23,522 nucleotides of DNA, from positions 1 to 23,522 of IMG/VR virus record IMGVR_UViG_3300025137_003518. The stretch is one strand, 5' to 3'. This document shows, piece by piece, positions 12,373-21,582 of this stretch (the first letter of the stretch is position 1; every line of letters starts with the position of its first letter). The DNA comes from a virus. The translations under genes and the position numbers were made by a program. The notes beneath the pieces were generated by a model. It searched no databases, was not told where the DNA came from, and was given only the letters and a program-made list of their open reading frames with translations.

Positions 12373-12843
12373 ATGACAGGCTTAACAACACTATTCCCCC
12401 GTTCATCTTTTGTGGGTTTCGATCATCTATTCAATGAACTAGAGTTCACTGCAAAACATGCTCAAGACCACTATCCCCCACACAATATTATTAAAGCTAG
12501 TGAATCAGAGTATCTGATTGAACTTGCTATTGCTGGGTTTACAAAGGATGAGATATCTGTAGAAGTTAAAGATAGAACTTTGACTGTAACAGGGGAACAC
12601 GTATCTAAAGGTAGAGAGTTTATCCATCGTGGCATTTCGACAAAGAAATTTAAACGAACCTTTAGGCTGTCCGAACATGTAAATGTAAACGGAGCAGATA
12701 TTCAAGATGGTATACTTGCAATAGAACTGAAGTACATCATCCCAGAAGAAATGCGTCCTCGTAAAATTTCAATTGGAAAAAACGAGGGTCAAAATGACGC
12801 AACACATAATAACAGCAAGCAACTACTTACTGAATCCCATTAG
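12373..12843 (+). CDS. hsp20: Small heat-shock protein (Hsp20, IbpA-like)
   Basis: This is an ATP-independent holdase chaperone of the alpha-crystallin family, which binds unfolding proteins. It has 156 aa. The N-terminus RSSFVGFDHLF resembles E. coli IbpA. The alpha-crystallin domain runs from YPPHNI (34-39) through LAIAGFTKDEISVEV and TLTVTGEH to DGILAIELKYIIPEE (112-126). The C-terminal I-x-I anchor is ISI (132-134) after PRK. ATG at 12373 is chosen because AAGGAG stands six bases before it; an upstream TTG is ignored. Hsp20 is a common auxiliary gene in marine T4-like phages, usually near gp43, and may aid virion protein folding. It overlaps the next gene by 50 bases. Confidence 0.95.
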   Translation: MTGLTTLFPRSSFVGFDHLFNELEFTAKHAQDHYPPHNIIKASESEYLIELAIAGFTKDEISVEVKDRTLTVTGEHVSKGREFIHRGISTKKFKRTFRLSEHVNVNGADIQDGILAIELKYIIPEEMRPRKISIGKNEGQNDATHNNSKQLLTESH

Positions 12844-13087
12844 TGAGTTTCTATGTACATTAAGTACTTTACCTAACAATATAGCTAATTCGTATAGACG
12901 GTCTAAGTCGGCTAGAAGTACAATGAAGGAGCTGTGTTCATTAACAGACGCAGAACTAAATGACATTGGGATTACACGTGGCGATATTCGGTACATCGCA
13001 TATCATCCTGCGGAACAAGATAACCATCGTCATGCAGGAGAGCAAGCTAACTATCCTTCAAATAATAATTTAAAAGGATGGGTTTGA
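12794..13087 (+). CDS. DUF1127 family small protein
   Basis: This is a 97-aa protein with a DUF1127 (YjiS-like) domain at about 35-70. It has a basic segment YRRSKSARSTMKELCSLTD followed by AELNDIGITRGDIRYIA, the hallmark D-I-G-x-x-R-x-x-I pattern. In alphaproteobacteria, proteins of this family bind RNA or tune phosphate and carbon metabolism and stress responses; whether the phage protein does so is inferred. ATG at 12794 follows GAGGG and lies inside the end of hsp20, so the two are translated together. A short arginine/lysine-rich N-terminus and a histidine-rich tail (DNHRHAGEQ) flank the domain. Its presence suggests capture from an alphaproteobacterial host. Confidence 0.85.
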   Translation: MTQHIITASNYLLNPISEFLCTLSTLPNNIANSYRRSKSARSTMKELCSLTDAELNDIGITRGDIRYIAYHPAEQDNHRHAGEQANYPSNNNLKGWV

Positions 13088-13263
13088 TGACAACCGCAGT
13101 GCTTACATCTTTCTTTTCGCCTTTGTCTGGTTTGTGGTCGCAAGTAGATCGGTATACGCAGATAGCTGGATACTCGAGAGCGGCAGCGGAGCTCGCAAGG
13201 GCTGGTTACCAAGAGGAGAGCAAAAGATGTATGATGGAGTTACGAAAGTTGCTTAATAAATAA
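13087..13263 (+). CDS. Hypothetical small protein, 58 aa, DUF1127 operon
   Basis: I have no firm name for this protein. After a hydrophobic start (TTAVLTSFFSPLSGLW) it has a helical part IAGYSRAAAELARAGYQEES with spaced alanines and arginines, and a basic end RKLLNK. The first 16 residues could be a weak membrane anchor. The ATG overlaps the stop of the DUF1127 gene (TGATGA), with AAAGGATGGG as ribosome site. A longer frame from ATG 13078 would add three residues. Its coupling to the DUF1127 gene suggests a shared role. A hairpin follows directly. Confidence 0.7.
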   Translation: MTTAVLTSFFSPLSGLWSQVDRYTQIAGYSRAAAELARAGYQEESKRCMMELRKLLNK

Positions 13264-13267
13264 GAAA

Positions 13268-13289
13268 AAGAGAGCCTTAGGGCTCTCTT
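13268..13289. terminator. Hairpin ending the hsp20 operon, weak terminator
   Basis: A 9-bp stem (AAGAGAGCC / GGCTCTCTT) with loop TTAG starts five bases after the stop codon. On the plus strand only two T follow, so termination would be partial and the membrane/redox genes could be read through. On the minus strand the hairpin is followed by a run of five T, but no minus-strand gene ends here. Confidence 0.65.
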
Positions 13290-13318
13290 CACACAACACA
13301 CAATAAAGTGAGAAGACA

Positions 13319-13720
13319 ATGAATGTATTAAATAAGATTCCAGATTTTTGTATGAGCCATTGGTTAATAAGAATACCTTTGGCTATTGTATTTTTACAAC
13401 AAGGCTTTAGTAAATTACCAGTAACAATAGAAGGTGCAGAAAGTTTTGATTTACCTTATATTGTTTGGTGGTTTGCAGCATACGGTGAGATCGGTGCTGG
13501 TATAGGCTTACTTGTAGGTGGAGCCATCATATGGCACAAGCTAAAAGAAATAAATGATATTATAACTCGATTCAGTGGTATCACAATTTGTAGTATCATG
13601 ACAGGAGTTATATGGGTCGGTCAACCCGAAAGCTTCTGGGATGTTATTTTATATGATAACCTCCATGTATTTTTATGGGTGGGAGGATTGTTCTTTGCAC
13701 TTAGAGGAAACCGGACATGA
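13319..13720 (+). CDS. DoxX-like inner-membrane protein
   Basis: This 133-aa membrane protein has about four hydrophobic segments (near 16-34, 46-70, 86-102 and 108-128). The pattern LIRIPLAIVFLQQGFSKLP and then AYGEIGAGIGLLVGG is that of DoxX/DoxD-type proteins: arginine in the first helix, a helix ending in QGxxKL, and a glutamate at the start of helix 2. Family members are linked to quinone or thiosulfate metabolism and redox balance; the exact role here is unknown. GTGAGAAG precedes the ATG. The stop overlaps the next ATG (ATGA). It opens the block that ends with pseudoazurin. No clear promoter was seen before it. Confidence 0.65.
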   Translation: MNVLNKIPDFCMSHWLIRIPLAIVFLQQGFSKLPVTIEGAESFDLPYIVWWFAAYGEIGAGIGLLVGGAIIWHKLKEINDIITRFSGITICSIMTGVIWVGQPESFWDVILYDNLHVFLWVGGLFFALRGNRT

Positions 13721-14046
13721 AGAATAGTATAAAAGCATTTCCTCCTCTGGCACTATGGATTGTAGCTAAAGAAGGATGGAAAAGTATAATGACGATTGAG
13801 CATTCCCCATTACGTAACCTGCCACCCCAACTTGCTTTAATGGTATTCTTAATACTATCAGTGATGTGGAGTGGTATCTTTGCTGCTCTCATAAGCAATC
13901 CCTACATATTTGGCTGGACAGCTGGAGGACATATTTTAGTCGTTTGCGGAATTTTTATCACTGCAATAGTTCATGACCAAGCTGAGAAAGCTGGTAATGT
14001 TTCCCAAAACTATAACCTACGCGGCGCTGGCGGCGAACACGAATAA
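13717..14046 (+). CDS. Hypothetical membrane protein, 109 aa
   Basis: I do not recognise this protein. It has two likely transmembrane helices, LALMVFLILSVMWSGIFAAL at about 39-58 and GGHILVVCGIFITAIV at about 70-85. An N-terminal amphipathic part holds several tryptophans, and the tail is polar (DQAEKAGNVSQNYNLRGAGG). The gene is coupled to the DoxX-like gene by an ATGA overlap, so the two products may form one membrane complex. That is inferred from place only. Its tail also runs in another frame as the start of a false, longer version of the following gene. Confidence 0.75.
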   Translation: MKNSIKAFPPLALWIVAKEGWKSIMTIEHSPLRNLPPQLALMVFLILSVMWSGIFAALISNPYIFGWTAGGHILVVCGIFITAIVHDQAEKAGNVSQNYNLRGAGGEHE

Positions 14047-14068
14047 CACACAACACAAGGAGAAAGAT

Positions 14069-14299
14069 ATGTCAAATCCATATCAAATTAGATACGACGT
14101 TTTAGCAATGTCAAAAGAAATATTAGATAAACAGTATGATATGCAATTACAAATGGCTCATAAAGCAATGGAAATGTATAAAGAAAACTCTGAACAAGCA
14201 TTAGAAGCATATCAGAAATATATTCCAAAATCAATTACACCTGAAGAAATAAAAGCTCAAGCTGATAAGTTATATGAGTTTGTATCGGAAAAGAAATGA
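14069..14299 (+). CDS. Hypothetical helical protein, 76 aa
   Basis: This is a small soluble protein made of amphipathic helices, with no name. It opens with SNPYQIRYDVLAMSKEILDK, then runs through KQYDMQLQMAHKAMEMYKEN, which is rich in methionine and lysine, and ends with KSITPEEIKAQADKLYEFVS. ATG at 14069 is chosen because AAGGAG stands six bases before it; an in-frame ATG at 13973 lies inside the previous gene and has no such site. It is shaped like a small adaptor. The stop overlaps the next ATG. Confidence 0.8.
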   Translation: MSNPYQIRYDVLAMSKEILDKQYDMQLQMAHKAMEMYKENSEQALEAYQKYIPKSITPEEIKAQADKLYEFVSEKK

Positions 14300-14451
14300 G
14301 TGAACAGTATTGTACTACTAGAGGACTAGGCTGGGCATTTTTAGTTTGTGCTTTCTTTATATTTGGTGTACCATTATTATTAGTGGACAATGCCAAGTAT
14401 TGTAAACAAGCAATCTTAGTACCATGTTATCCATGGGTGGAGGCAGAATAA
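14296..14451 (+). CDS. Small single-pass membrane protein, 51 aa
   Basis: This 51-aa frame runs from ATG 14296, which overlaps the stop of the previous gene (ATGA), to TAA at 14449-14451, which directly precedes the next ATG. It begins SEQYCTTRG, then has a hydrophobic helix LGWAFLVCAFFIFGVPLLLV (11-30), then a short tail with three prolines and cysteines near CKQAILVPCYPW. There is no known family. The exact fit between two coupled genes supports it as real although it is short. Confidence 0.72.
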   Translation: MSEQYCTTRGLGWAFLVCAFFIFGVPLLLVDNAKYCKQAILVPCYPWVEAE

Positions 14452-14643
14452 ATGCACTTTACTATTATTAATAATAGCACAGGTGAAACATTTGATATGG
14501 AATTTAATTCTCATGAACAGAAAGAAAAGTGGCTTAAACTATCCGAGGGATTTAAATGCCTTGGTGAAGTCCAAGGTGACTATCTTCCAACTCGTCATGT
14601 AAGAATGAGAAATAAAGAGGACTTTGCAGGATGGGGGAGTTAG
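14452..14643 (+). CDS. Hypothetical protein, 63 aa
   Basis: This small soluble protein has no sure function. The start HFTIINNSTGETFDMEF forms a beta-hairpin-like pattern and is followed by a lysine-rich helix EQKEKWLKLSEGFKCLGE. The end is basic (RHVRMRNKEDFAGWGS). The ATG follows the previous stop without a gap, with GGTGGAGG as ribosome site. It overlaps the next gene by 13 bases, in keeping with a tight operon. Confidence 0.75.
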   Translation: MHFTIINNSTGETFDMEFNSHEQKEKWLKLSEGFKCLGEVQGDYLPTRHVRMRNKEDFAGWGS

Positions 14644-14849
14644 ACCCAAGAGTATCAGCACAAGAGGAAGCAGAAAAAACATTTGAAGCTTTTATGTTAT
14701 GGCTGAAAAGAGTTACAATGTATTCAGCAATATTTCTTGGTATTGTTGTGTTTGGTTGTAATAGTGGAGTAGAAACAGGTAAAGGTAAGACTGGCTCTCA
14801 ATATAATGGAGAACAGTATGATCCTTACAATCTTAATAAGGATGAGTAA
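14631..14849 (+). CDS. Small membrane peptide resembling aa3-type cytochrome c oxidase subunit IV
   Basis: This 72-aa protein has one transmembrane helix. The segment AEKTFEAFMLWLKRVTMYSA (about 14-33), just before the helix IFLGIVVFG, resembles the bacterial aa3-type cytochrome c oxidase subunit IV family (COX4_pro_2), where a short polar start leads to a T-F/Y-x-G/A-F stretch and then one helix. That family is typical of alphaproteobacteria. Here the helix ends in a cysteine (FGCNS), which could also be a lipobox-like site, and a glycine-rich polar tail follows. The match is by motif only. AAGAGG stands ten bases before the ATG. It directly precedes the pseudoazurin gene, which supports a redox link. 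Confidence 0.5.
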   Translation: MGELDPRVSAQEEAEKTFEAFMLWLKRVTMYSAIFLGIVVFGCNSGVETGKGKTGSQYNGEQYDPYNLNKDE

Positions 14850-15281
14850 ATGAAAAGAAATATAATAATAGTTATGGTACTTAGCTTTTTAGGTACTATA
14901 ATTTTATCTGCAGCTAATGCAGAAGACTTAACTATTGAAATGTTAAATAAACGTGATGATGGTGCCAAGATGGTTTACGGTACTGACATTGCAAGAGTAG
15001 AAGTTGGTACAACAATAACATGGATACCAACACAAAAAGGTCATAATGTAGAATTCATCGCAGGACCCGATGGATGGAAAGCACCTAAGAAATCAAAAGT
15101 AAATAAAGAAGTTTCCATTACTTTTGATACTCCAGGTGTTTATCTATATCAATGCACACCACATGCAACAATGGGTATGATCGCTTTAGTTGTAGTTGGT
15201 GATGGTGATAATGACGTATCTAAAGCAAAGGTACGAGGGAAGTCTAAAAGAAAACTAAAGGAACTTTTAAAGGAGCTATAA
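14850..15281 (+). CDS. Pseudoazurin (type I blue copper protein), secreted
   Basis: This is a periplasmic copper electron carrier of 143 aa. A signal peptide covers residues 1-24, with a charged start, a hydrophobic core and cleavage likely after ANA. The mature part matches pseudoazurin closely: EMLNKRDDGAKMV, then TWIPTQKGHNVEF, then FDTPGVYLYQCTPHATMGMI. The four copper ligands are present as H65, C102, H105 and M110. A basic lysine-rich tail (about 125-143) replaces the usual C-terminal helices. Pseudoazurin passes electrons from the bc1 complex to reductases, peroxidases or oxidases in alphaproteobacteria. The ATG follows the previous stop directly. I rate the family as safe; its role in infection is inferred. 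Confidence 0.94.
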   Translation: MKRNIIIVMVLSFLGTIILSAANAEDLTIEMLNKRDDGAKMVYGTDIARVEVGTTITWIPTQKGHNVEFIAGPDGWKAPKKSKVNKEVSITFDTPGVYLYQCTPHATMGMIALVVVGDGDNDVSKAKVRGKSKRKLKELLKEL

Positions 15282-15325
15282 TGCTTGACCCTGATCACTC
15301 ATACAGAAAAAAAGTAGGAAAATAA
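15281..15325 (+). CDS. Possible 14-aa microprotein
   Basis: ATG at 15281 overlaps the pseudoazurin stop (TAATG) and has an excellent AAAGGAG site six bases before it. The frame reads MLDPDHSYRKKVGK and stops just before a hairpin. It may be a real coupled microprotein, or the ribosome site may have no use. No family is known. Confidence 0.35.
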   Translation: MLDPDHSYRKKVGK

Positions 15326-15327
15326 CA

Positions 15328-15348
15328 GAAAGGGCCGTTGGCCCTTTC
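15328..15348 (+). terminator. Hairpin after the redox block, probable terminator
   Basis: A perfect 9-bp stem GAAAGGGCC / GGCCCTTTC with a 3-base loop stands right after the last frame. The following sequence is TA-rich (ACTATTTTATAG) with one run of four T, so termination should be partial. The right arm also serves as part of a promoter for gp43. Confidence 0.7.
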
Positions 15349-18977: not shown

Positions 18978-19240
18978 CACCTAAAGAAGAAATAGTAATC
19001 CTTAAACAGAATGTTAAGGAACTACAAGAACAATTACAGAATGCGTACATTCGTATTAAATATCTGACTGGAGATAAGGAAACAACTCCTATTGATAGAC
19101 ATTACGATAATTGGGTGGAGGATGTTGGAGTTGTGATTCCAGACGGAACAGGTCATGGACCAGCTATGGAACTTGATGATGGTTGGGCAGATGAGGCAAC
19201 TATTCAAATACAATCTACTAGCAGAGGTAACAATCAATGA
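18974..19240 (+). CDS. Hypothetical protein with N-terminal coiled coil, 88 aa
   Basis: The first 32 residues (EEIVILKQNVKELQEQLQNA and on) form a heptad-like coiled coil, so it probably makes dimers or trimers. The rest is acidic and glycine-rich without a family signal. It is coupled to the primase-like gene by ATGA and to the cupin gene by a four-base overlap (ATGA at 19237). Place in the operon suggests a replication or sugar-cassette accessory role, but nothing more can be said. Confidence 0.75.
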   Translation: MTPKEEIVILKQNVKELQEQLQNAYIRIKYLTGDKETTPIDRHYDNWVEDVGVVIPDGTGHGPAMELDDGWADEATIQIQSTSRGNNQ

Positions 19241-19626
19241 CAAAAGCTGGCAAGGTTTGGGGTACTACTGAACTTATAGAAGCTAATGGTGCCTTAGAGT
19301 TTCATAGAATTGAAATGAAGAAAGGTGGAGTGTGTTCTAAACATATGCATGAATTCAAATGGAACGGATTCTTTGTTGAATCTGGCAAGATGTTAGTACG
19401 TACTTGGCAAAAAGATTATGACCTTATTGATGTGACCACTATTGGACCAGGTGAATATCACAAAGTTAAACCTGGATTGTATCATCAGTTTAAATGTTTA
19501 GAGTCTGGTGTTGCGTTTGAGTTGTACTGGGCAGAGTTTAATCATAACGATATAAAAAGAGAGACTGTTGGTTTTGCAGAGGAGCAAGACGAATTGTTTG
19601 ATACTATAAGAGTGCCTCCAGCATGA
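19237..19626 (+). CDS. Cupin-domain protein
   Basis: This 129-aa protein has a single beta-barrel cupin. GGVCSKHMHEFKWNGFFVESGKM (from 30 on) is the first motif with H36 and H38 as metal ligands. PGEYHKVKPGLYHQFKCLE (71-89) is the second motif, with H83 as the third ligand. The usual glutamate of motif 1 is not in its standard place. Such cupins include sugar-phosphate isomerases and epimerases, so in this context it may act on a sugar before the following enzymes; that is inference. It overlaps both neighbours by four bases. The C-terminal tail is acidic. Confidence 0.82.
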   Translation: MTKAGKVWGTTELIEANGALEFHRIEMKKGGVCSKHMHEFKWNGFFVESGKMLVRTWQKDYDLIDVTTIGPGEYHKVKPGLYHQFKCLESGVAFELYWAEFNHNDIKRETVGFAEEQDELFDTIRVPPA

Positions 19627-20324
19627 TTAGATATATTTTTGATGTAGACGGAACTCTCACTCCAAGCAGAAGATCTATAGATAGAGAGTTTGCAGATTGG
19701 TTGATTGAATTTGCAAAAGATAGTAAACTGTATTATGTTACTGGATCAGATAGAAGAAAGACTATGGAGCAACTTGGCCCGGATGTATATCTTTTAGCTA
19801 AAAGAGTTTATCAATGTAGTGGTAATGATGTATGGGAAAAAGAAAAAGGTAATATAAAATCTGGTACAATGGCAGTCCCTGATATGTTGTTCCAAAGTAT
19901 GTTAGAAGAACTAGAGGTAAATGAGTTTCCTATACGAACTGGTAATCATATAGAATCCAGACCTGGTTTGTGTAACTTTAGTATTGTTGGACGTAATGCT
20001 ACTAGAGCAGATCGTAAAGAGTATGTAGAATATGATTTAAAATATAAAGATAGAGAACAGATAGCAAAACGTCTAGGTGAGAAGTATAACAATTATAATG
20101 TACAAGTCGCAGGAGAAACTGGATTAGATATAATGCCAAAAGGAAGAGACAAGTCTCAAATACTAAATGACTTTGAGGCTGACGATACTATATATTTCTT
20201 TGGTGACAAGTGTCAAGAAGGTGGGAATGACTATGAGATTGCTAGAGCTACATTAGCTCGTGGTGGCATTGTACATGAAGTAGAGAGTTGGGAAGATACA
20301 TGGAGAACATTGAAAGAACTGTAG
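19623..20324 (+). CDS. Eukaryotic-type phosphomannomutase (HAD superfamily)
   Basis: This enzyme would convert mannose-6-phosphate to mannose-1-phosphate, or hydrolyse a sugar phosphate. HAD motif I is FDVDGT (D7, D9). The middle fits the PMM family closely: ESRPGLCNFSIVGRNATRAD (111-130), KEYVEYDLKYKDREQIAKRL, and AGETGLDIMPKGRDKSQIL near 163-181. Motif IV is FFGDKCQEGGNDYEI (192-206), almost the same as in human PMM2. At 233 aa it is the family length (about 250). The bacterial mannose pathway normally uses a different, unrelated mutase, so this type is unusual here. It overlaps the cupin (ATGA) and the next gene. Confidence 0.86.
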   Translation: MIRYIFDVDGTLTPSRRSIDREFADWLIEFAKDSKLYYVTGSDRRKTMEQLGPDVYLLAKRVYQCSGNDVWEKEKGNIKSGTMAVPDMLFQSMLEELEVNEFPIRTGNHIESRPGLCNFSIVGRNATRADRKEYVEYDLKYKDREQIAKRLGEKYNNYNVQVAGETGLDIMPKGRDKSQILNDFEADDTIYFFGDKCQEGGNDYEIARATLARGGIVHEVESWEDTWRTLKEL

Positions 20325-20749
20325 GATTTACGTGTAGCACGTTTGATTTGCTACACGCAGGACACATTGCAATGTTAAGAGAAGCAAAGGAACAATGTGA
20401 TTATCTTATATGTGGATTACAAACAGATCCAAGTATGGATCGTCCTGAAAAGAACAAACCAGCTCAAACATTAGTAGAGAGATATACACAGCTTCAAGCA
20501 GTTCGATACGTGGATGAGATTATACCATATACTACAGAACAAGATTTAGAAGACATATTAAAAATGCTAAATATAGATGTAAGAATTATTGGGCATGAAT
20601 ATAAATCTAAAAAGTTTACTGGTAGAAACATATGCTCACAAAGAGGTATTGAAATATATTATAACAGAAGAGACCATAGGTTCTCCACCTCTGATCTTAG
20701 AAACAGAGTATATGGAGCTGAGTTGAAGAAAGACATTGATAACATATAA
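20300..20749 (+). CDS. Nucleotidyltransferase of the HxGH family (TagD/RfaE-like)
   Basis: This 149-aa cytidylyl/adenylyl transferase transfers a nucleotide to an alcohol phosphate or sugar phosphate. GFTCSTFDLLHAGHIAMLRE (9-28) has the catalytic HAGH (19-22) with the loop before it. CDYLICGLQTDP (33-44) and the terminal RFSTSDLRNRV (127-137, the S/T-R motif) complete the family pattern. Glycerol-3-phosphate cytidylyltransferase and the heptose adenylyltransferase RfaE are the nearest models; the substrate is open. The ATG at 20300 follows GGGAAG and lies inside the mutase gene. A TTG at 20288 would add four residues. It ends in a one-base overlap with the dehydrogenase. Confidence 0.88.
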   Translation: MENIERTVGFTCSTFDLLHAGHIAMLREAKEQCDYLICGLQTDPSMDRPEKNKPAQTLVERYTQLQAVRYVDEIIPYTTEQDLEDILKMLNIDVRIIGHEYKSKKFTGRNICSQRGIEIYYNRRDHRFSTSDLRNRVYGAELKKDIDNI

Positions 20750-21582
20750 TGAATATTTTAATTATTGGCCATGGCTTTGTAGGTAAAGCTGTCGACTATG
20801 GATTTAGCCACCCTGATATTAATAAAGTAATAGTAGATCCCAAATATGGTAACAGCATTGATAACATCCCTGATAACACTTATAGCGTTTGCTTTGTTTG
20901 TGTACCGACCCCAATGGCAGACCTTGGTGCTGTTAATAGTGACATTATTACTGATGTCGTTCGTTCCTGTGTAGGTAAAAAGATAGAGATGGTAGTTGTT
21001 AAGTCAACTGTCACTCCAGATATTATTCTTGAACTAAAGAAAATATTCAAACACATTGTATACAATCCAGAGTTCTTAACAGAGAAGTCAGCTAACGAAC
21101 AGTTTGTTGATCCTCAGTTTCACATCTTTGGTGGAGATAAAAAAGATTGTAAAGACCTTGAAAAAATATATAAGGATTACAGTCTTTGTAATGATTGTCC
21201 TACTTATACCATGAGTTTAGAAGAAGCCAGTTTTGTTAAGTATACAATCAATAGTTTCTTAGCAATGAAAGTAACTTTCTTCAATCAATTATATGATGCA
21301 ATAGGTGACACTGATGCTAACTTTGCTCGAGTTATAAAAGCTGTTGGAGCAGACAGTCGTATTGGTTCTTCGCATACAAAGGTTCCAGGCTTTGATGGTA
21401 AACAAGGATATGGTGGCGCATGCTTCCCAAAGGATACCTCTGCATTCACTAAGTTTTCAAACAAGTTGACTTTGTTGGAAGAATGTATTAGAATCAATAA
21501 TAATTATAGATTACAGCATAAATTAGACGAGCGGGAGATTGAACAAAATGTCAATTATGGACAAACTAAAAAAGAACAGTAA
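20749..21582 (+). CDS. UDP-glucose/GDP-mannose 6-dehydrogenase family, short form
   Basis: Such enzymes oxidise a nucleotide sugar twice to the uronate using NAD. The NAD-binding fold has GHGFVG (7-12), FVCVPTP (49-55), VKSTVTP (84-90) and NPEFLTE (106-112). The central domain has KYTINSFLAMK (164-174) and the catalytic cysteine C225 in GGACFPKD (222-229). The protein ends at 277 aa, while typical members have about 400-450 aa, so the C-terminal nucleotide-sugar binding domain is missing. It may be a half-size variant, use a partner, or act on another sugar. The 3' end overlaps uvsX by 35 bases. The ATG touches the previous stop. Confidence 0.88.
   Translation: MNILIIGHGFVGKAVDYGFSHPDINKVIVDPKYGNSIDNIPDNTYSVCFVCVPTPMADLGAVNSDIITDVVRSCVGKKIEMVVVKSTVTPDIILELKKIFKHIVYNPEFLTEKSANEQFVDPQFHIFGGDKKDCKDLEKIYKDYSLCNDCPTYTMSLEEASFVKYTINSFLAMKVTFFNQLYDAIGDTDANFARVIKAVGADSRIGSSHTKVPGFDGKQGYGGACFPKDTSAFTKFSNKLTLLEECIRINNNYRLQHKLDEREIEQNVNYGQTKKEQ

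Follow-up and report, generated by a model that had tools for sequence, protein, structure and literature searches.

We report a mobile group of genes in marine phages that probably, at roughly three chances in four, forms a respiratory module aimed at the terminal part of the host electron-transport chain, cytochrome c oxidase, with an electron donor of its own and a modified oxidase subunit IV. Four observations carry this reading: the homologies of the encoded proteins, their co-occurrence in many viruses, the exchange of one electron carrier for another at the same place and, in one viral lineage, the linkage of the module to COX2, Cox11 and COX1 genes.

Layout of the gene cluster

The DNA is a 23.5-kb fragment of a virus record; "the window" designates below this entire stretch of 23,522 nucleotides. 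No tRNA gene was found in it. Its gp43 polymerase is nearest to those of T4-related marine phages, the best match being Phage C48C1 (50%). The cluster is preceded by genes for Hsp20, a DUF1127 protein and a 61-aa protein, and followed by gp43. A preliminary description of this DNA had reported seven closely packed frames between two hairpins, and all of these elements were found again, the seven frames on the plus strand and the whole spanning 13267-15348:

13267-13290, no strand given: hairpin 5' of the cluster, 10 pairs, with a terminator pattern met on the minus strand only
13319-13720, plus strand: DoxX-family membrane protein, 133 aa, four main helices (Pfam PF07681)
13717-14046, plus strand: mem109, a membrane protein with two long helices and a C-terminal GGEHE motif (conserved family)
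14069-14299, plus strand: hel76, a 76-aa helical protein whose membership in the cluster is doubtful
14296-14451, plus strand: mem51, a one-helix protein with two invariant Cys past the helix (alignment of 19 sequences)
14452-14643, plus strand: 63-aa protein, common in the cluster (recurrence in viral loci)
14631-14849, plus strand: COX4-like protein, a relative of aa3 oxidase subunit IV (PF07835 and profile comparison)
14850-15281, plus strand: pseudoazurin with signal peptide (Copper-bind)
15328-15348, no strand given: terminator-like hairpin 3' of the pseudoazurin gene, 9 pairs, terminator-like on both strands

The joints are as tight as had been described. An ATGA overlap is found between doxX and mem109 (4 bases) and between hel76 and mem51, and there is no gap between mem51 and the 63-aa gene, nor between the COX4-like and pseudoazurin genes. 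The 63-aa and COX4-like frames overlap by 13 bases, and 22 bases separate mem109 from hel76, which starts at 14069. Five of the seven frames recur as families across dozens of viral contigs, and pairwise dN/dS values to relatives lie between 0.01 and 0.24 for doxX, mem109, hel76, mem51, cox4 and paz. The doubt about hel76 comes from the fact that it also adjoins gp43 where the module is laid out differently. This protein had been counted among three further small membrane or helical proteins; helical it is, but it looks soluble and the membrane assignment falls for it.

Two observations were made on the surroundings. In many loci, with either carrier, the module is preceded by the DUF1127 protein (in the window, the pair 12773-13087 and 13078-13263) and then by a small conserved protein with the motif GYSRAAAELxRxGYHEEAK. 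Farther on, from gp43 to a UvsX-like gene (19237-21582 of the window), frames resembling a cupin, a HAD phosphatase, a nucleotidyltransferase and a UDP-sugar dehydrogenase were recognised by eye.

The last frame encodes a pseudoazurin

The product of the last frame scored 60 bits against Copper-bind (cut-off 21.2), and its four copper ligands, H65, C102, H105 and M110, are invariant in 28 viral sequences. Its leader is hydrophobic and ends in ANA-E, as read from the sequence, which marks a secretion signal. The best solved matches of the window protein are pseudoazurins, among which the bacterial 3tu6 reached 106.5 bits. That a complete pseudoazurin closes the operon, as first proposed, is thus borne out: by its sequence the protein is a genuine pseudoazurin, with a predicted function in electron transfer. 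Identity with plastocyanin was rejected, as the match to PHROG 515 (PetE) gave only 23.7 bits and plastocyanins stood far below pseudoazurins among solved structures.

In the tree, a single branch (support 93, below the program's star) unites 49 of 50 phage pseudoazurins with a gene of Rhodobacteraceae MED-G08, and it adjoins other Rhodobacteraceae. The host-chromosome pseudoazurins inspected (L083 and L087) stand alone. Three apparent host matches were discarded as such, L082 and L089 being phage contigs by their genes and L094 by its mem109 genes. L094, on a contig binned as Neomarinimicrobiota, carries a divergent pseudoazurin on a long branch, with two mem109 genes some 3 kb away, and is possibly a separate acquisition. 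Among the cultured phages of the collection, no pseudoazurin, DoxX or module-type cytochrome c was detectable.

A relative of oxidase subunit IV with an added tail

The COX4-like product of the window scores 19.7 bits against COX4_pro_2 (PF07835), just under the cut-off of 22. Although the protein taken alone would not pass, 19 of 21 viral relatives match the family (best E 3.6e-6), and comparison of the viral profile with that of host subunit IV gave a probability of 97.4% (E 1.5e-11), so that the resemblance to COX4_pro_2 first noticed in the window is confirmed as homology. The viral family is, on these sequence comparisons, homologous to subunit IV of bacterial aa3 oxidases, and its place in an oxidase is predicted, with the nearness of COX1 and COX2 genes in one lineage as indirect support. 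A search of PDB sequences with the profile returned only a chance antibody match.

The host subunit stops just past its helix (for example ...FIALVNG). The viral proteins keep the host core and helix, and continue with an invariant Cys at the end of the helix followed by a conserved tail, YNGEQYxPxNL. As the Cys stands in a lipobox-like context (VVGC or VASC), the protein could be a small lipoprotein.

DoxX, mem109 and mem51

With 32.8 bits against PF07681, the window DoxX passes the curated cut-off of 23.6, and the DoxX-like label given to it earlier holds. For its confident AlphaFold model (pLDDT 84.8), the best VIA row after re-alignment was NACHO (TMEM35A), with Z 10.3 over 113 residues and an rmsd of 4.0, where unrelated four-helix bundles reach Z 9. 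Since NACHO is an assembly factor, the match would favour a chaperone-like role for phage DoxX over direct redox chemistry. The likeness to the DoxX/NACHO superfamily consists of the Pfam match and this structural row; NACHO assembles receptors in animals, whereas phage DoxX sits in a putative respiratory cluster and has three invariant residues, C11, H14 and H116. The near relatives of the window DoxX are encoded on chromosomes of marine Rhodobacterales and Pelagibacterales.

No named Pfam family matched mem109, and a PDB sequence search gave no match for either mem109 or DoxX. With the mem109 model (pLDDT 75), the best Foldseek E value against the PDB was 0.48, and VIA gave Z of at most 6.7, on unrelated helical chains. 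The protein occurs in the cultured phage Melnitz, where it is annotated as hypothetical, and solitary chromosomal homologues are present in 28 of 385 alphaproteobacterial genomes. With such homologues in diverse Alphaproteobacteria (L340, L343, L344, L345 and L348), mem109 is an unnamed conserved family of membrane proteins that would be worth naming. For mem51, a weak relative lacking the Cys pair was found in a Rhodobacterales chromosome.

The module recurs with conserved content and variable order

A scan of IMG/VR with the pseudoazurin returned 297 confirmed relatives, the best 80 of which were read. Because a single query biases the sample, DoxX and mem109 were run as independent further queries. 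Partners were counted among five families, in loci with 2.5 kb of flank on each side, the three query sets overlapping. Of the loci with pseudoazurin, 40 of 47 had at least one other module gene no more than 2.5 kb away; the same was true of 31 of 39 loci with doxX and of 30 of 36 with mem109, and all 268 partner pairs were on one strand. The check by which the preliminary description could have been overturned came out in its favour: both homologies, DoxX and COX4_pro_2, are confirmed, and viruses that carry pseudoazurin mostly carry these neighbours too.

About 30 gene orders or subsets were seen, such as mem109-mem51-cox4-paz-doxX, doxX-mem51-cox4-mem109-paz and mem51-cox4-mem109-doxX. The surroundings vary as well, with gp43, ribonucleotide reductase or nucleotide-sugar genes as neighbours (named by eye). 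The conserved order next to hsp20 and gp43 that had been anticipated was found in a subset only; elsewhere the content is conserved but not the order, which argues for selection on the combination of genes.

A copper carrier and a heme carrier replace each other

Module contigs with no pseudoazurin at the locus were searched over their whole length, and 29 of 30 had none anywhere. A search of large contigs revealed a cytochrome c directly beside doxX or mem109. These replacement cytochromes, found in relatives and absent from the window, are of class I, with a CxxCH heme site and an invariant GTKM in the distal Met region, and score 36.8 to 45.7 bits against Pfam (cut-off 21.3). The solved structures closest to the phage cytochrome c are mitochondrial cytochrome c and Paracoccus c552. 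Cytochromes of the mitochondrial type are the carriers that serve aa3 oxidases.

When the phage cytochromes c were themselves used for a scan, 46 viral loci were obtained, and none of the 45 newly fetched had a pseudoazurin. Three loci (L434, L436 and L439) read doxX-cytc-mem109-mem51-cox4. In the slot that extends from the 61-aa gene (g61) to gp43, distinct loci have pseudoazurin in 19 cases, cytochrome c in 6, both in 0 and neither in 4. Over all 166 distinct module loci, many of them fragments and counted with kinship ignored, the figures are 78 for pseudoazurin, 17 for cytochrome c, 0 for both and 71 for neither. Mapped onto the tree of DoxX, the cytochrome c label requires 5 changes, and well-supported branches force 2 of them or more; these changes suggest that copper and heme carriers were probably exchanged more than once.

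The swap of two non-homologous small periplasmic electron carriers within one operon is the strongest evidence we have for function, a natural experiment that points to it without biochemistry. It parallels the situation in algae, where plastocyanin and cytochrome c6 interchange.

Some individual loci deserve mention. A mitochondrial-type cytochrome c lies in the slot of pseudoazurin in L436 (4585-6080), L413, L425 and L429. CxxCH matches near the pseudoazurin of L048 and L050 belong to glutaredoxin-like proteins and were rejected as cytochromes. No carrier was seen with the module in L260, L276, L280, L217 and L253; in L217, L253 and L280, nearby small frames such as MKWFVVIIFNTLAGDIFVF... 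have a conserved Cys and could be another component.

Linkage to catalytic subunits of an aa3 oxidase

On a 134-kb contig (IMG/VR 3300027859_000890; L174, 1117-6726), genes for COX2, Cox11 and COX1 of aa3 type lie directly upstream of the module. The order, supported by Pfam, is COX2-Cox11-COX1-mem109-63aa-COX4-like-doxX, then a few small frames and pseudoazurin. The COX1 protein matches Paracoccus aa3 subunit I with 1029 bits and has its metal-ligand motifs intact (HPEVY, WAHH and HDTYYVVAHFHY), while COX2 carries the CuA motif CSELCGKNHAYM. No COX3 gene was found in the read stretch of this viral oxidase lineage. The contig encodes a phage clamp loader and a tail fibre/baseplate-connector protein, and among its 204 frames there are 114 with relatives in other viral loci that bear the module. 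A contig from another metagenome, 3300012928_002343, ends at doxX and as far as that gene repeats the order, with a COX1 that is 100% identical. As COX1 and the order agree between two metagenomes, a chance misassembly is unlikely. The viral contigs in which the aa3-type COX2, Cox11 and COX1 genes immediately precede the module are L174 and L467.

COX1 was found in four more viral contigs, L468 (with COX2 and Cox11), L469, L470 and L471 (with Cox11, by eye), with phage genes around it and no module in the stretches read. L484 was not counted, its COX1 match having no phage neighbours in the read stretch, and L483, too short to judge, was left out of the viral COX1 count. Only 1 of 23 large module contigs carries COX1, so that most module phages must act on the oxidase of the host.

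Proposed function

From these results we propose that the phage supplies a soluble periplasmic carrier, pseudoazurin in the window and mitochondrial-type cytochrome c in relatives, which would accept electrons at the bc1 complex and deliver them to an oxidase of aa3 type. The COX4-like protein would be a modified oxidase subunit IV, whose added conserved tail, periplasmic according to the positive-inside rule, is a possible docking site for carrier or oxidase. As membrane helpers, DoxX and mem109 would most likely assist the assembly or stability of the complex. The gain for the phage would be electron flow, and with it proton motive force, kept up during the shutdown of host gene expression. 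To judge from the relatives of its pseudoazurin and DoxX, the phage probably infects a marine alphaproteobacterium. Several results weigh against this reading: 71 of the 166 distinct module loci show neither carrier and 29 of 30 contigs searched whole have no pseudoazurin, catalytic oxidase subunits are rare, the COX4-like protein of the window scores under its cut-off and could be a lipoprotein, and the solved structure nearest to DoxX is an assembly factor rather than a redox enzyme. The view that the cluster is a respiratory electron-transport block receives strong support as a prediction, and the analogy with cyanophage plastocyanin drawn in the preliminary description is apt, because cytochrome c fills the slot in relatives and COX2-Cox11-COX1 adjoins the module.

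A more ambitious version, to which we give somewhat less than an even chance, is that phages of heterotrophic marine bacteria rebuild the terminal aerobic segment of the host chain. A viral subunit IV whose tail docks the carrier, a dedicated copper or heme donor from the virus, membrane assembly factors of its own and, for some lineages, catalytic subunits encoded by the phage would then yield a cytochrome c oxidase that is hybrid or entirely viral during infection.

Protection against copper or redox stress is an improbable alternative, though the best placed of those considered. Pseudoazurin would then buffer periplasmic copper, DoxX would act as in oxidoreductase or bufferin settings, and the small membrane proteins would serve envelope maintenance. 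DoxX does belong to the core of copper-chelating bufferin clusters, and a homologue elsewhere guards against oxidative or sulphur stress (PMC12452194); the model of phage DoxX is similar to copper storage proteins too (Z about 9), which are, however, generic four-helix bundles. But the cytochrome c that takes the carrier slot in relatives is a heme protein and no copper buffer, the neighbourhoods read showed no recognisable MNIO or bufferin gene, and the homology to subunit IV and the linkage to COX2-Cox11-COX1 would be left unexplained.

It is quite unlikely that these are unrelated small genes of a hypervariable island, membrane proteins for lysis or for the exclusion of other phages among which pseudoazurin landed by chance. 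Islands of this kind often encode small membrane proteins, gene order varies, and mem109 and mem51 have no assigned function; yet the members of the module keep recurring side by side, in many orders, on a single strand and among differing surrounding genes, all under strong purifying selection. The carrier exchange, moreover, preserves function and not homology, and both mem109 and DoxX have relatives on bacterial chromosomes.

Least credible is an anaerobic use, with pseudoazurin feeding a host nitrite or nitrous oxide reductase as in denitrifiers, given that subunit IV and COX1 are here of the aerobic aa3 type, that the alternative carrier is the one serving aa3 oxidases, and that no reductase was recognised adjoining the module. 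What speaks for it is that pseudoazurin lies beside nirK and cbb3 oxidase genes in some SAR11 genomes (PMC12816887) and that viral nirK is on record (PMC8115048).

Relation to known systems

The proposed respiratory module resembles the plastocyanin (petE, PHROG 515) and photosynthetic electron-transport genes of cyanophages in that a phage-borne small blue copper carrier is thought to sustain electron flow during infection. It differs by its pseudoazurin type of carrier, its respiratory context with subunit IV, the swap with cytochrome c and its presumably heterotrophic alphaproteobacterial hosts. With the aa3 oxidase of Paracoccus and Rhodobacter (CtaD, CtaC, CtaG and subunit IV) it shares the homology of subunit IV, and the viral COX1, COX2 and Cox11 of one lineage are close to these enzymes; in contrast to them, the phage subunit IV has gained a Cys and a conserved C-terminal tail, and most module phages have no catalytic subunits.

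Oxidase genes have been reported before from the viral fraction, as marine virome reads annotated as cbb3 subunit I, with no gene context (PMC3474794); those described here are of aa3 type, on assembled contigs and in a recurrent module. Genes for 5-aminolevulinate synthase and heme oxygenase in aquatic phages have been proposed to support the host respiratory chain (PMC11480375), but they serve heme supply, whereas the module supplies a carrier and oxidase parts. We also saw 5-aminolevulinate synthase-like genes, by eye, in COX1-bearing phages (L472, 5980-7170, minus strand; L480, 20-649), and heme oxygenase on 4 of 23 large module contigs. In the literature searched, with subscription journals and bioRxiv outside its scope, we found neither pseudoazurin nor DoxX described from phages in this sense, and no dedicated viral respiratory module for heterotrophs; two pelagiphage gene surveys mention neither protein.

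That phages steer the energy metabolism of their hosts is well documented in the case of cyanobacterial photosynthesis, and it is heterotrophs that respire most marine organic carbon. The module offers a candidate function for the mem109 proteins of alphaproteobacterial chromosomes, and it raises the question of whether viruses alter the oxygen consumption of infected marine bacteria.
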